Of a stretch of 33,889 bases of DNA, positions 45-11,575 are shown one piece after another. The notes below the pieces were generated by a model. The model did no database searches. It was not told the DNA's origin and saw only the letters and a list, made by a program, of their open reading frames with translations. Position numbers and translations under genes: made by a program. The stretch's first letter is position 1, and each line of letters starts with the position of its first letter. The DNA lies in contig JAABYT010000024.1 of assembly GCA_011775625.1 (NCBI GenBank), positions 1-33,889 of the forward strand. Reading direction: 5' to 3'. This DNA is from Gammaproteobacteria bacterium (GTDB lineage: Bacteria > Pseudomonadota > Gammaproteobacteria > HK1).

Positions 45-2252
45 TCACATCCCGGCACTCGTCCTGAGCGCGTCCATCTCGAGCGCTGTCTTGCCGGATT
101 CGCGGTAAAAGACGGCTGCAGATTCAGAAAGCCGCACGGCGGCTTGCGGATGTGTGTCCTGCATGGATTGCGCGAGCTCCACGAGTTTGTCGGCAAGACG
201 TTTTTTGGTGCGTGCTGAAAGATAGCGTTGGTTGCTCGGGTGCAGGGCATCCCTCAAGTAGGCTGCGACGAGCATTTCGGCCGACTCGCGTGGAATCTGC
301 TCCGAGCGCATGGCGTGTGGCACGAGGCGGGTGACAACGCCATCTGTGAAGAGCTCGTGCTGCCCGGTGGCTCTATCAATCATCGCGAGATAGCACAGCC
401 CCTGAATCAGCCGCGCGTCGCGGTCCTGCTCGATGATCCTGGTGGCTTCCTCGACGGCGAGACTAATCTGCCCCATGCTGAGCAAGGTTGACAGAAAAAT
501 TTGATCAATCGACAGCGCACGGAAGACAGCGGCGTCCCAGCCATCCGGGACTTGTAAATCCGGTGCGAGGATGTGCCCACGGAAGTATTCGAGGTCCTTG
601 CGGGCAGCGACCGCTTCACCCGCTGCAAGCCGCGACATGCCGCGCCACAGGCGGATTCGAGCCACGAGGGTGCGGTCCTCGTCGCCGTCGGGCACGTGTG
701 TCAGGGCGTCGGTGTAGAACTTCACTGCATCCGCGTACTCGCGATTCAGGAGGTAGTAGTTTCCCACCTGCGCGTACTCGGCAACGTCGGTCGGATACCA
801 GCGTATTGCATCCTCATCGAGATCGAGCACCGCGGCTGGATCACCAGGGGGCAGGTGCGAGACCGTGGGCAGATGTGTGGCCCAGAAGGAGAGCTTCGTG
901 GACTGATTGCCCCATCGCGCGGACGAGATATTCATCAAACCGAACCGTCGCGAGGGGAGCGTGCCGTTGGGTTGAGCGACCATCAGGTTATGCCGCTGTG
1001 CGGGTGCCCATCGGATGCGACCGTGAGGCACGATCGCAACCGTACGGTCGAATTCCTCCGCCAGGGTGAGATAAGCGAGGTTAGATCCCGGCTTTGACCA
1101 GCCCAGGAACTGCTCCACTTGCAAAGCCCCGGACAACTCGGTGAGGGTGCCGGATTCCGGATCTACGAGCAGCAGACGTTTCTCGCTCAGCATCCCCAGC
1201 AAGCGCTCACCGGGTGCCCAGTGAAGGTCGGTGGTCTGTCCTTCAGGCATGCTGAGGACCCGCTGCGGTCGATCGGTCGCGATCCGCGTCAGTACGAGCT
1301 CGCGGATCGGGTTTGAATCCGCCGGCTGGCTCGAGTCCGCCGGCTGCGCCGCTGCCGGTGCCCTGATGTGGGCGAGCCAGCGCGAGTCGGGCGACCAGCT
1401 TCCGAGGCGCGGACGCAGATCGTAGAGAAATTCGCTGTGTCCCCGATGCTGCGCGTCCTCCACTCTGTGCTCCGGCACGACAGGGGGCGCCGGACTCTTC
1501 TCGATTGACCGCCATTTCGTCTCGTCCGAACCAATGGGCCCGAGCCATAGGGCGCCCATGTCCGACTTACGGGTCGCAGAGGTGAGCCACTCGCCGTTCG
1601 GACTGATTGAAAACGCCAAGCTCGGTGCGCGAATCGGCGACGCCACGGTGCGCATGCCGTTGTCGGCGTTCAAGGACATGACGGACTGAAGGCCGGACGC
1701 GTCGGTATCGAGGAACAACACGTGATTGCCGTCCGGGTGCCAGGCGAAGAGCGCGTCGGCTTTGAGCTGGATCTCTGCCCGAAATCGAGCCGCAGTAAGA
1801 AATCTCGGATTTGCAGGTGTCCAATCGCTCGGTAGAGTTGCCGAATCTCCCGCGGACTTTTGCACGTCGGAAGTCCAGATGTCCTCCGGGGCCGGCCAAT
1901 ACCAAAGCGCGTAGCTCAGCAGTCCGGTGCTCGAGTCCCGCTTGCCATCCGTGACGGCGAATAGTACGGCACGCTGTCCTGGTGCCCAATGGGGAGAGGA
2001 CAGGGTGGTATCAGGCTTTGCCGTGAAAACGCGCCGATGCATGTCTCCCCGCGTGCGGGCTACAAAAACGCTGTCCTTATGACGATATGCAATGGCCCGG
2101 TCGTCGGCAGAGAATGGAATTGTGCGGTCCTCTTCCCATCGAACGGTGCCGTTCGGCACGCACGCGGCAAAGACCGAGAGCGCGAGTAAAACGACCGCAA
2201 GCTCTGCAAGCGTACGCGGCGAATCCGGTAAGTGTCGATGGCTATTGCTCAT
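45..2252 (-). CDS. PD40 beta-propeller / TPR lipoprotein
   Basis: Predicted envelope lipoprotein of 735 residues. The N-terminus has a signal peptide ending in a lipobox (SVFAAC, Cys31). Residues about 40-480 contain repeated WD40-like PD40/TolB-type blades, for example WAPGQRAVLF, FAWHPDGNHVLFL, SWSPDSRWLAHI and HWAPGERLLGML. From about residue 490 there are TPR-like helices (YYLLNREYADAVKFYTDAL and following). No catalytic motif is seen, so a scaffold or binding role is inferred. I chose ATG 2252 because AAGG lies about 9 bases upstream; an in-frame TTG at 2258 is the alternative. The start overlaps the end of the upstream TPR lipoprotein gene, so the two are probably co-transcribed and translationally coupled. 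Exact function unknown. Confidence 0.8.
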   Translation of the reverse strand: MSNSHRHLPDSPRTLAELAVVLLALSVFAACVPNGTVRWEEDRTIPFSADDRAIAYRHKDSVFVARTRGDMHRRVFTAKPDTTLSSPHWAPGQRAVLFAVTDGKRDSSTGLLSYALWYWPAPEDIWTSDVQKSAGDSATLPSDWTPANPRFLTAARFRAEIQLKADALFAWHPDGNHVLFLDTDASGLQSVMSLNADNGMRTVASPIRAPSLAFSISPNGEWLTSATRKSDMGALWLGPIGSDETKWRSIEKSPAPPVVPEHRVEDAQHRGHSEFLYDLRPRLGSWSPDSRWLAHIRAPAAAQPADSSQPADSNPIRELVLTRIATDRPQRVLSMPEGQTTDLHWAPGERLLGMLSEKRLLLVDPESGTLTELSGALQVEQFLGWSKPGSNLAYLTLAEEFDRTVAIVPHGRIRWAPAQRHNLMVAQPNGTLPSRRFGLMNISSARWGNQSTKLSFWATHLPTVSHLPPGDPAAVLDLDEDAIRWYPTDVAEYAQVGNYYLLNREYADAVKFYTDALTHVPDGDEDRTLVARIRLWRGMSRLAAGEAVAARKDLEYFRGHILAPDLQVPDGWDAAVFRALSIDQIFLSTLLSMGQISLAVEEATRIIEQDRDARLIQGLCYLAMIDRATGQHELFTDGVVTRLVPHAMRSEQIPRESAEMLVAAYLRDALHPSNQRYLSARTKKRLADKLVELAQSMQDTHPQAAVRLSESAAVFYRESGKTALEMDALRTSAGM

Positions 2253-2766
2253 GTTCAAGTACCTTCAATCGAAGCAAAGCGAGCTCCGTCTCCGCGGTTC
2301 CGGGATATTCGCCGACGATTTGTCGGTAGGCGATCATGGCCCGTTCTCTCTTTTCGAGATGACGCTCGAGCAGGTCGCCCAACATCAACAGCGCCTGGCG
2401 CCGCTGCTCGTGCGGAAGGCTCGCGCGCAAGGCCTGCTCGATGTTTCTGCGAGCCTCATCGTATTCCCCAAGTGCGATGTGGAGTTCCGCCAGTTGCATG
2501 AATGCCTGTCCCCTCAAGGCACCGTCGCGGGAGATTCGAATAATCGCGGCGTAATCACTCTCGAGTTGATGACGTTCGGCAATCGCCCGGATAGCAACGG
2601 AATGCCGGCGCTCGGTGCTCTCCCAGAGCGCATCCGCATCGAGATTTCTGCCTGGAGCCGCGCAGCCGGGAAGCACCGTAATGAGGAGTAAACCCAAGGA
2701 GGCACCGGCCGCAATTTTGTGCGCTGTCTTCATGATTGGCTTTGGTTGGCGCCGGTGCCGGGACAA
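2242..2766 (-). CDS. Small TPR-repeat lipoprotein
   Basis: Predicted lipoprotein of about 174 residues. A basic N-terminus is followed by a hydrophobic stretch and the lipobox VLPGC. The mature part is almost entirely helical with TPR-like periodicity (AFMQLAELHIALGEYDEARR, then ALLMLGDLLERHLEKRERAM, then a third partial unit), as in outer-membrane assembly or scaffold lipoproteins. Two starts are possible. TTG at 2766 has GGAGG about 6 bases upstream, while ATG at 2733 gives a shorter, more typical signal peptide but has no clear ribosome site. The gene precedes and overlaps the PD40/TPR lipoprotein gene, suggesting the two products act together in the envelope. No specific family assigned. 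Confidence 0.75.
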   Translation of the reverse strand: MSRHRRQPKPIMKTAHKIAAGASLGLLLITVLPGCAAPGRNLDADALWESTERRHSVAIRAIAERHQLESDYAAIIRISRDGALRGQAFMQLAELHIALGEYDEARRNIEQALRASLPHEQRRQALLMLGDLLERHLEKRERAMIAYRQIVGEYPGTAETELALLRLKVLEHEQ

Positions 2767-5787: not shown

Positions 5788-8700
5788 CTAACTCCCGGCC
5801 GCTTGTCCGCCACCGTCGCCGATGAGCGAGAACGGTGCCCAAAAAATCGGATGGGCGTAGGAGAATACGGTGCGGCCTTTGGCATCGACGAAGCCCGGCC
5901 CGTCAATGAGGGCGTTCATCGTACGGCGCAGTGCCTCGGCTCGGGACAGGGTGGTATCAGCGGCTTGACGTCTGAACAGATCGGTCGTCAGCGTTCGCGC
6001 GCTGGTCGTCTCGACCGGCCAGTTCGAGACCAAGAGCGCCCGCGTACCGGCGTAGAAGAACGCGCGCCCGAGCCCCGAAACGGCTTCTGCGCCGGCGCCA
6101 GCGCCCGCTGCGGTGTTGCATGCCGATAGCACCACCCAATCGGCGTCCAGCCTGAGCGCCAGGATCTCGCCCATGGTCAGCAGCCCGTCCTCTCTGCCGC
6201 TTCCCACCTGCGGGGGTGTCAGCGCCAGTGCAGGTTGCGCCAGCCCGTCCAGGTCGCCCGGCACCAGCCCGTGGGTGGCGAACGCAACCACCTTGTAACT
6301 CGACAGCGTCATTGACTTGACCCGGTCTTCGGTTGCCGCCCTGCCGGTGAACACGTCGCGCGAGAGATCCGCGTTCAGCGCGAGCGCGATGCTTTCGATC
6401 TCCTCACCCGTATCCGGAAGACGCGGCAGCATGGCCAGATCCGCGCTCGATAAGCCTCCCAGATCCGGAGAGGCGCGCCGTGATAGGAGCAGGCTTCGCA
6501 CCTTCGGCGCACCGCGCGCGGACATCGTGACAGGCTCTGTCGGCTTCTCGGCCTCGGCGCCGGTGGCCTGTGCGTGCGTGAACCACGGATCGCCGAAGCC
6601 CGCAAAAGGCCGGCGCGAGGCCGATGCGGGCGCCAGGCTTCGCAACGTTACCAGGGACGCTACGGAAGGCAGCACCGTCACCGCGTGCGTGCGCGCGAGC
6701 CAGGGCATGTCTCGGTACTCGGAGAACAAGGGCTGCCTCTGCGGTACCGGCTGCGCGGACGCGGTGGTCAGCACCGACAACGGTAGCTGCCCGAGTGGGC
6801 CGTCCGCGACCACCAGCAGACTGTGCGCCTGCTCCCATCCCGCCGTCACCGGCGCCAGCAGCGCTTTATAAAGTCGGTGCGCCAACTCGACATCGAATGG
6901 CGGGATGCCTCCCAGCGAGGCCGCGCGCGGATCCAGCGATCGGCGCAGATCACCAACGGCTGCGGCCATGCGCTCTCGCCCGAGCGGGGCGACGGTGAAT
7001 GCGAGCTGTCCCACCCTGGGTATCGCCCAAACATAGGCCTTGTCCTTCGCGACATAGGTCACCACCAGCGCCTCGCCGACCGCCAGGCTGTTACGTGCGG
7101 CGGTAATGGTCGCGGGCCTGGGACTCATGAGCGTGGCATATTCGGGGAATCGTGTCTCGATCGCTTCGGCGAATGCGGCCCGAGCGTTACGCAGAGTGTC
7201 GATCCGCACCCTCAGCTCCTCTGTGGCGGCCGCCCCCGGCCTGTATTCGGGGCGCAATAACGTGCGCGCCAGCAACCCGTGCAACGCGCCAATCTGCTTG
7301 ACTGCGTCCTGCTCTTTTCGCACGAGCTCCGCGAGCTCCGCGTCGCCGGCGGCGGCACGGGCCGCGCTGGCCGACAAGGCCCGCTGCACCGCTTGCCCGC
7401 GGGCGAACTCGGCGAGCCGGAAGGCTTCGCCTACTGCATCCGGTCCGATCCCGACGCTGGCATCTTCGAGGCTCACGAGCAGATCGATGTAGGCTTCGAG
7501 GATCAGACCGAGGCGCATCTCCTTGGCTGTTTGATCGCCTAATTCCTCGTCGCTTCGACGAGAGCGCGTCATCAGTATCGGCACCGACGCCGCGAATGCG
7601 TCCATTGCCTGTCGCTGCTTTCCCATCCTGGCAAGCGCCATAGCGAGCACTCCATGCGCTTCGGCCGTGACGTAGTGCTTGGGTCCCAGAGCCGTCAGAT
7701 GGTGGCGCCACGCCCTTCGAGCGAGCGCTTCTGCTTCGTCGGCCCGGCCGGTGCTGACAAGCGCGACGGCCCAAGTGATGTCACGGGAAAAGAACTGATC
7801 GAAGGTGACGGCGTCCGTCGCGAGATCCGTTTCGATTGACTCGAATACTTCAATCGCCGCTGTCCACTGCCGCTGGTTGACCAGCGCTTCGGCAAGCTCG
7901 GCGTGGGCCAGTGCAAGTTGAAAGGAATCCCTCGGTGCACCAGTCTCCAGGTAGATGTCCGCCAATGCGCGCGCAAGGCGTTCGGCTTCTTCATGGCGAC
8001 CCTGCGCGCCAATCACACGAACCAGGGTCTTCAGTTGCAGTGCGGTGTCCTGCGAATCGCGGCCGGCCCGGGCGAGAGAACCCATCACGGCCTTCCTCGC
8101 TTCGATCTCTGCTTCGATTAATCGATCTTGACGCAGTAGGTTCTCAGCGAGCTCGGCGTGGCTCAAATCGATGTGTATTGCGCTGTACGTGGCGTGCGGA
8201 TGAACTTCGAAATTTTTCCGAAACCTGGTGATGGCGATTCGATAGTGTTGCTCGGCATCCGCATATCGTCCCTTCACGTCGAGCAGGTTAGCCCTTGCCC
8301 GCTCAATCTGAGCCGTCCAGAGGTTGTTCCATTCGGGCCATGATCGCCACGACCTGGCCTCATTGAGCAGTGCTTCCGATTTTTCCAGAAGTCGTTCTGC
8401 CGCAATCAAGTCTCCGCTGCGCCCGTAGTGGACAGCCAGTACGGCTCCGCGCGTAATTCCCAAGCCGCGGCGATTCGAGGGGATGGACGCGAGCGCCTTT
8501 TCCCGATGATCGATCGCGTCGACGAACCTGCCCGCAAGCAGCTCGGCATTCGACAGATCCCAGAGAATGCCCGAGCGAATTCTGTCTTCACTCTTGCGCG
8601 ACAAACGCTCGGCTTCTTTGAGATCCGCGAGGTAGCGTTGACTGTCACCGATCTCACGTGCTGCCAGGCCACGCTTCCAAAAGAACTCGGCCAACTCCGT

Positions 8701-9003
8701 GTTACCGGCGCCGAGCGGCGGCTCGGCGGTTGCCAACGTGCGAGCGCGCTCCATCGCTTTCGGATCCGCAAGCTCGTAGTCATCGATAAGCCCGGCGATA
8801 TCGTCGATGGTTCTGGGTGGCGGGGTGAAGGATTGTCCTTCGAAGGTCGCCGAGACCTTCTTGGCCTGCTCGAGCGAGATTGCCGGAGGCTCGCGTTCAG
8901 TGCTCTGGCAGCCCGATAGCAGTTGCAATACGACCGATGCGGCTGCCATTAAACGAGCTCCCGGGCTCACTCGTTGCGTGTGATGAATACGTATTCCGGT
9001 CAC
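5788..9003 (-). CDS. TPR-CHAT lipoprotein (caspase-like fold)
   Basis: Large protein of about 1071 residues. GTG 9003 is chosen because GGGAGGAG lies 8 bases upstream; a longer frame to 9150 has no such site. The N-terminus has basic residues, a hydrophobic stretch and the lipobox LLSGC (Cys32), so it is predicted to be a lipid-anchored exported protein. Residues about 70-600 are rows of TPR-like helices (AEQHYRIAITRF, AELAEALVNQRQWTAAIEVF). The C-terminal third is a CHAT domain, a caspase-HetF-associated peptidase fold, with the catalytic His in FATHG (about residue 911) and Cys in VLSACNTAAG (about residue 962), followed by ALLVSNWPVE. The dyad appears intact, so protease activity is plausible. 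No partner gene is obvious: the neighbours are the kinase-like gene and tRNA-Leu. Substrate unknown. Confidence 0.85.
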   Translation of the reverse strand: MTGIRIHHTQRVSPGARLMAAASVVLQLLSGCQSTEREPPAISLEQAKKVSATFEGQSFTPPPRTIDDIAGLIDDYELADPKAMERARTLATAEPPLGAGNTELAEFFWKRGLAAREIGDSQRYLADLKEAERLSRKSEDRIRSGILWDLSNAELLAGRFVDAIDHREKALASIPSNRRGLGITRGAVLAVHYGRSGDLIAAERLLEKSEALLNEARSWRSWPEWNNLWTAQIERARANLLDVKGRYADAEQHYRIAITRFRKNFEVHPHATYSAIHIDLSHAELAENLLRQDRLIEAEIEARKAVMGSLARAGRDSQDTALQLKTLVRVIGAQGRHEEAERLARALADIYLETGAPRDSFQLALAHAELAEALVNQRQWTAAIEVFESIETDLATDAVTFDQFFSRDITWAVALVSTGRADEAEALARRAWRHHLTALGPKHYVTAEAHGVLAMALARMGKQRQAMDAFAASVPILMTRSRRSDEELGDQTAKEMRLGLILEAYIDLLVSLEDASVGIGPDAVGEAFRLAEFARGQAVQRALSASAARAAAGDAELAELVRKEQDAVKQIGALHGLLARTLLRPEYRPGAAATEELRVRIDTLRNARAAFAEAIETRFPEYATLMSPRPATITAARNSLAVGEALVVTYVAKDKAYVWAIPRVGQLAFTVAPLGRERMAAAVGDLRRSLDPRAASLGGIPPFDVELAHRLYKALLAPVTAGWEQAHSLLVVADGPLGQLPLSVLTTASAQPVPQRQPLFSEYRDMPWLARTHAVTVLPSVASLVTLRSLAPASASRRPFAGFGDPWFTHAQATGAEAEKPTEPVTMSARGAPKVRSLLLSRRASPDLGGLSSADLAMLPRLPDTGEEIESIALALNADLSRDVFTGRAATEDRVKSMTLSSYKVVAFATHGLVPGDLDGLAQPALALTPPQVGSGREDGLLTMGEILALRLDADWVVLSACNTAAGAGAGAEAVSGLGRAFFYAGTRALLVSNWPVETTSARTLTTDLFRRQAADTTLSRAEALRRTMNALIDGPGFVDAKGRTVFSYAHPIFWAPFSLIGDGGGQAAGS

Positions 9004-9226
9004 CGAAACGACTCCTCCCGAGGTCCGTGCGCCAGAGCGAATAAGCCTGTGACAGGAGATTCCGCGGGCGAACGGTTCGTCAGGCGAGCCGTGTCGAAGA
9101 TTCTCTCCGTCGGGATTGCAGCCGTCATGCTGCGTCGCCGGAGGGGACAAGAGCGGGCATCCAATTCACTCTGAGCGATTCAGCGAGAGGGGCGGGCCAC
9201 GGCATTGGTGTGATACCGGTCGAGTT

Positions 9227-9313
9227 TGGTGCCGGGAGAGAGACTCGAACTCTCACTCAGTTGCCTGAACCAGATTTTGAGTCTGGCGCGTCTACCAGTT
9301 CCGCCATCCCGGC
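9227..9313 (-). tRNA. tRNA-Leu (anticodon CAA)
   Basis: An 87-base cloverleaf on the minus strand. Acceptor GCCGGGA pairs with TCCCGGC, followed by discriminator A and an encoded CCA. The anticodon arm is CCAGA-CTCAAAA-TCTGG with CAA at positions 34-36, and there is a long variable arm as in type II tRNAs. The T-arm loop is TTCGAGT. It reads UUG leucine codons. It lies back-to-back with queA. QueA and Tgt modify tRNAs with GUN anticodons, so this tRNA is not their substrate and the adjacency need not be functional. Confidence 0.97.

Positions 9314-9416: not shown

Positions 9417-11575
<2,159 letters not shown>

Follow-up and report, generated by a model that had tools for sequence, protein, structure and literature searches.

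Introduction

To our knowledge, the bacterial CHAT proteases characterised so far are cytoplasmic and act mostly in defence. In Csx29 of type III-E CRISPR systems, a cytoplasmic protein of about 650-670 amino acids that is bound to Cas7-11, a TPR array leads into a CHAT domain that carries a His-Cys dyad, and a comparable pairing of a helical solenoid with a caspase-like domain is found in eukaryotic separase, a nuclear enzyme that cleaves cohesin and is controlled by securin. The TPR-CHAT protease of Craspase is autoinhibited and becomes active through movement of its TPR-linker, by which the His-Cys distance shrinks from about 7 to 3 Angstrom (PMC9729208). Three further reports touch on the envelope or on genomic context: DdvA of Myxococcus xanthus acts in envelope signalling, its signal being described as unknown (PMC4374960), in Magnetospirillum the gene of the small secreted protein MtxA lies next to that of a CHASE2 adenylate cyclase (PMC4439547), and for ECF54 sigma factors the genomic context has been noted to include CHAT (PMC8999054). 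Our literature search, with subscription journals mostly outside its reach, found no account of TPR-CHAT lipoproteins that are exported, nor of a trio of CHAT, small protein and CHASE2 genes. Here we analyse a CHAT gene that shares both the solenoid and the caspase-like domain of these systems and lies on a 33,889-nucleotide contig of a gammaproteobacterium, the whole of which we refer to as the window.

Results

A predicted lipoprotein with a TPR array and a C-terminal CHAT domain

The architecture proposed for this gene in a preliminary description, namely a lipobox at the N-terminus, a long array of TPRs and CHAT at the C-terminus, is what we observe at 9003-5788 on the minus strand, where Pfam recognises both CHAT and TPR_12. 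The features are as follows.

5788..9003 (-), coding sequence of the predicted TPR-CHAT lipoprotein, 1071 aa from GTG 9003
9012..9019 (-), ribosome-binding site GGGAGGAG for GTG 9003, read directly from the sequence
8911..9003 (-), predicted lipoprotein signal peptide ending in LLSG, with an equivalent signal in 38/61 complete N-termini
8908..8910 (-), predicted lipobox Cys (LLSG/C), residue 1 of the mature protein, followed by Gln and not Asp
7087..8874 (-), TPR/alpha-solenoid array, from Pfam TPR_12 and helices 13-608 of the AlphaFold2 model
5815..6888 (-), CHAT caspase-like domain PF12770, from Pfam
6271..6273 (-), putative catalytic His (FATHG), in 73/73 aligned sequences, directly after model strand 872-878
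6118..6120 (-), putative catalytic Cys (SACNTAAG), in 72/73 aligned sequences, directly after model strand 925-929

The open frame extends to 9150..5788 (-) and would encode 1120 amino acids from an upstream TTG, the numbering in which CHAT spans residues 755-1112 (E=7.9e-51; 173.6 bits against a PF12770 cut-off of 24) and the dyad is His960 and Cys1011. GTG 9003 is the best start of this frame, with GGGAGGAG as a strong ribosome-binding site 8 nt upstream; were the alternative GTG 8970 used, the lipoprotein signal would stay complete with a shorter n-region. From GTG 9003 the protein begins with a basic n-region and an h-region (AAASVVLQLL) that leads into the lipobox. By our own heuristic, which looks for an n-region, an h-region and [LVI][ASTVI][GAS]C near the N-terminus, this is a lipoprotein-type signal with LLSG/C at residue 32 (residue 81 of the 1120-aa frame).

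Export is retained across homologues while the form of the signal changes

We assembled 80 loci encoding relatives and read the N-terminus of each; 61 sequences, the window protein counted in, have a complete N-terminus and make up the signal census. A hydrophobic segment ending in a lipobox Cys is found at the equivalent position in 38 of the 61, the Cys lying mostly 38-46 residues ahead of the alignment point just after a conserved PPPRTIxDI. The remaining 23 mostly carry a plain Sec signal with a typical AxA site; L027 has a near-miss lipobox (LPRC), and L034, L040, L043, L055 and L088 have other sequence with no signal in the stretch examined. Four of these (L034, L040, L043 and L088) form a subclade with a different N-terminal extension, two pieces of which gave no Pfam match. 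Almost every homologue with a complete N-terminus has a lipobox or Sec signal, and these homologues come from Alpha-, Beta- and Gammaproteobacteria, Rokubacteria, Desulfobacterota and Nitrospinota. On the homologue tree, lipoprotein and non-lipoprotein forms interchange about 11 times while export persists, and thus export appears to be the conserved trait and the lipid anchor a common but replaceable one.

The lipobox could in principle be a chance match in a cytoplasmic protein that starts further downstream, in keeping with the lack of conservation in the congener upstream of residue 62. Yet the same-genus ortholog (76% identical) has a lipobox of its own, VVLLSG/C, despite its diverged upstream sequence, the ribosome-binding site serves GTG 9003, and nearly all homologues have a lipobox or Sec signal at an equivalent place. 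We give this reading almost no credence and regard it as refuted as far as sequence can do so. A start downstream of the lipobox is also not what the homologues show, most of them keeping the lipobox, and the exported-lipoprotein proposal of the preliminary description stands. The window protein is therefore predicted to be exported and lipid-anchored. In E. coli, Asp at position +2 retains lipoproteins in the inner membrane; among the 38 lipoboxes the +2 residue is Gln in 24 and Asp in one, so that by the E. coli rule sorting to the outer membrane is predicted, and the most likely anchor site of the window protein is the periplasmic face of the outer membrane.

The His-Cys dyad is nearly invariant and takes a caspase-like position in the model

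Both motifs of the pair that had been singled out at the start, His in FATHG and Cys in SACNTAAG, are kept in the family: across 73 aligned sequences, His is present in every one and Cys is replaced once, with the dyad nearly invariant throughout relatives of 35-77% identity. An AlphaFold2 model of the mature protein, built on an alignment of 60 sequences, is confident (mean pLDDT 88, pTM 0.89) and contains a helical solenoid over its first 600 residues. In this model each of His and Cys comes directly after a core strand of the CHAT fold (872-878 and 925-929, respectively), a predicted placement that is normal for a caspase-like dyad and bears on the question of dyad geometry raised earlier. 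From these features we infer that CHAT is proteolytically active; of the exported, dyad-bearing protease first envisaged, the export signal and the modelled position of the dyad hold, and the word protease stays at the level of this inference. Glu1047 (57/73) was considered as an S1-pocket acid conferring Arg specificity; its position is only roughly comparable with that in separase, and we make no such claim.

A search of the PDB with the model ranked DdvA first (8rw5, E=2e-11), then human separase (8e-10) and the Craspase TPR-CHAT protein (1e-9), the Foldseek matches being partial with TM 0.2-0.5. DdvA, for which 8rw5 shows a dimeric transmembrane anti-sigma factor, matches over most of the length, a likeness that rests on the fold match; the hits shown for our family profiles include no sequence match to it. 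It spans the membrane and acts on an ECF sigma factor, unlike the window lipoprotein, whose TPRs are preceded by a cleavable lipoprotein signal alone and which we do not class with DdvA. That solved fold matches are led by a transmembrane protein also qualifies the preliminary view of studied CHAT proteases as cytoplasmic: the structural relatives are not solely soluble cytoplasmic proteins.

This ranking bears on the main alternative to our proposed mechanism, a non-proteolytic, DdvA-like sensor in which a catalytically idle CHAT would serve as an envelope ligand-binding or dimerisation module of a scaffold, receptor-like or anti-sigma-like. The top fold match fits such a role, as does a CHAT substrate that is so far no more than a candidate. 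However, His and Cys are nearly invariant across relatives as distant as 35% identity, and the motifs FATHGLVPGDLDG and SACNTA surround them; this speaks for chemistry, and we consider an idle scaffold unlikely.

The gene lies behind a tRNA and lacks defence neighbours

Upstream of the window gene are tRNA-Leu(CAA) and queA and downstream is a cytidylate-kinase-like gene, flanking genes whose functions look unrelated. The tRNA lies at 9227-9313 (-) in the window and at 9599-9685 in the congener (L019), with the CHAT gene directly 3' in both. Among the CHAT loci of the genus no downstream neighbours are conserved; genomes of the family without a CHAT gene also keep the tRNA-queA order, and the site looks like a variable one behind the tRNA. 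A tRNA-borne island was considered, and integration is unsupported, as no copy of the tRNA 3' end that could serve as an attachment repeat was found in the window. Elsewhere in the window, at 45-2258 (-), a 737-aa protein has a lipobox-like signal (LSVFAAC), an apparent beta-propeller and then a TPR-like stretch, with no Pfam match.

The pairing of TPR and CHAT, the presence of the Craspase TPR-CHAT protein among the fold matches and the location beside a tRNA, in a region that differs between related genomes, all raise the idea of an abortive-infection type effector akin to gasdermin-linked or CRISPR TPR-CHAT proteases. Against this, the protein is predicted to be exported, and the surroundings contain none of the genes expected of such systems. 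As the preliminary description had reported, no gasdermin, CRISPR or NACHT gene is found among the main window proteins that we scanned, and none was seen among the recurrent neighbours of the 80 homologues; without an adjacent gasdermin in either set, we do not assign the protein to the gasdermin-linked CHAT proteases. Cas genes, including Cas7-11/gRAMP, are likewise absent from the window and from the recurrent neighbours. The window protein is considerably longer than Csx29, carries an export signal and gives no match to the Csx29 model (NCBIfam NF041237), and we do not class it as a Csx29. PADLOC, tried in support of a defence reading, matched neither the CHAT protein nor either of the two neighbours downstream of it, and its weak matches in the window are to a tgt, a DegP-like protease and a luciferase-like enzyme. 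Export and the lack of defence neighbours thus disfavour cell-death defence, which we regard as very improbable.

A CHASE2-cyclase and a small secreted protein recur beside relatives

To find recurrent partners, all genes around the 80 homologues were clustered, and profiles of both partner families that emerged were then applied to 75 usable loci with a 3-kb limit. One family is a CHASE2-class III cyclase and the other a small secreted protein of about 220 residues, with two predicted beta domains joined by a flexible linker and no Pfam match. The cyclase lies within 3 kb of the CHAT gene at 21 of the 75 loci and the small protein at 17, with two further cases (L028 and L029) in which its open frame begins inside the CHAT gene; at least one partner is present at 22 loci. 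The chance expectation for the cyclase is about 0.5% per locus, given a density of 0.63 CHASE2 genes per Mb across 13 host genomes. The CHAT loci are not independent, and those with a linked partner are distributed across the tree, L029 being one from the small clade to which the window protein belongs. The full trio of CHAT, small protein and CHASE2-cyclase occurs in many homologues (e.g. L021, L039, L047 and L084), and three gene orders recur: co-directional CHAT-small-cyclase, convergent (Ferrovibrio-type) and divergent (L022).

The small protein itself is single-copy and directly beside a CHASE2 gene in 12 of the 12 genomes that have it, even where CHAT is elsewhere. Among 398 genomes sampled evenly across the phylum, 27 have a member of the CHAT family, 12 the small protein and nine both; eight of the nine shared cases come from one genus in which the two genes are not adjacent, and counted by genus the co-occurrence has p=0.046. 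A small secreted gene beside a CHASE2 cyclase recalls MtxA. Identity with MtxA found no support, the small-protein profile missing the MtxA chain 4Z29 and 4Z29 not being among the 50 fold matches listed. Across the 34 distinct sequences of the small-protein family (among them L084:1728-2369 and L021:3916-4635), an Arg in the linker is invariant (34/34). We do not claim this motif as a CHAT cleavage site, as the Arg is also kept without a full-length CHAT relative: in three genomes the small protein and its linker Arg motif are present and no full-length CHAT relative was found. ABC transporters near the CHAT gene at 18 loci were set aside as a generic, dispersed family.

At the window locus both partner genes are absent, the small protein is missing from the window genome and its congener by profile search, and about two thirds of family loci have no partner nearby. 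The preliminary statement that the gene has no accompanying partner is thus right for the window locus and does not extend to the family, where the cyclase and the small protein recur. The window genome encodes two CHASE2-cyclases and at least one CHASE2-kinase elsewhere. On its contig C40 (L100/L101), the genes of a CHASE2 Ser/Thr kinase and of a CHASE2-cyclase are arranged facing one another, and in the congener (L118) the corresponding two genes are separated by those of a PP2C phosphatase and an FHA protein; loci of this type are a separate CHASE2 signalling cluster.

These recurrent neighbours point to an envelope signalling role. For part of the CHAT family a link to cyclase signalling is well supported; for the window protein itself it is no more than suggested. 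The main functional alternative is envelope protein processing without signalling: an exported protease for quality control or nutrient processing, with CHASE2-cyclase neighbours that are incidental to its biochemistry. No cyclase lies near the window copy or near about 70% of family loci, and in the genus the gene sits beside tRNA-Leu with downstream neighbours that are not conserved, as this alternative would have it. Nonetheless, 21 of 75 loci is not given by a 0.5% background, the three gene orders recur, and Craspase, a TPR-CHAT protease characterised in detail, is regulated (PMC9729208). We hold processing without signalling to be rather doubtful.

A proposed role in envelope signalling

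The best explanation as a whole, which we put forward tentatively and at somewhat less than an even chance, is that the protein is an exported, probably outer membrane-anchored TPR-CHAT peptidase of an envelope sensory or signalling pathway, and the data suggest a role in relaying envelope signals into the cell, not in killing. The scheme starts from features read in the sequence (export signal, architecture, dyad conservation and neighbourhood) and proposes a peptidase activity, an activation step, a substrate and an output. The TPR solenoid would be the sensing or docking part and CHAT an intact caspase-like (separase-like) cysteine peptidase. At rest the protein would be inactive; an envelope ligand or partner bound by the TPR array would rearrange the active site, and by analogy with Craspase the array could be the same activating part, here for an envelope ligand. 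Activated CHAT would then cleave, in a limited way, a periplasmic protein that supplies input to a membrane signalling receptor.

In many relatives this receptor would probably be the CHASE2 adenylate/guanylate cyclase together with the adjoining small two-beta-domain protein. The cut substrate might be either a small periplasmic regulator or the receptor ectodomain, changing the output of the CHASE2-cyclase, which in such relatives would take the form of a cytoplasmic cyclic nucleotide. The specific version in which a periplasmic caspase-like peptidase cuts the small regulator and so switches the CHASE2-cyclase, giving an output across the inner membrane, is rather doubtful. In the window genus the small partner is missing and the gene stands alone, and the target would therefore be another CHASE2 receptor of the genome or an unrelated envelope protein. 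An exported, lipid-anchored and deeply conserved CHAT branch would extend caspase-like proteolysis to the envelope, with the CHASE2-cyclase and the small secreted protein as concrete candidates for its output and substrate.

The same genome encodes a second TPR and CHAT protein on contig C7 (L001, ~123518-124312). It is about 770 aa long, has an apparent Sec signal and no lipobox, and is 32% identical to the window protein over part of CHAT. Exported like the window protein, it differs in its partner: its gene is directly followed by one for a DUF928 protein, a different exported CHAT pair.
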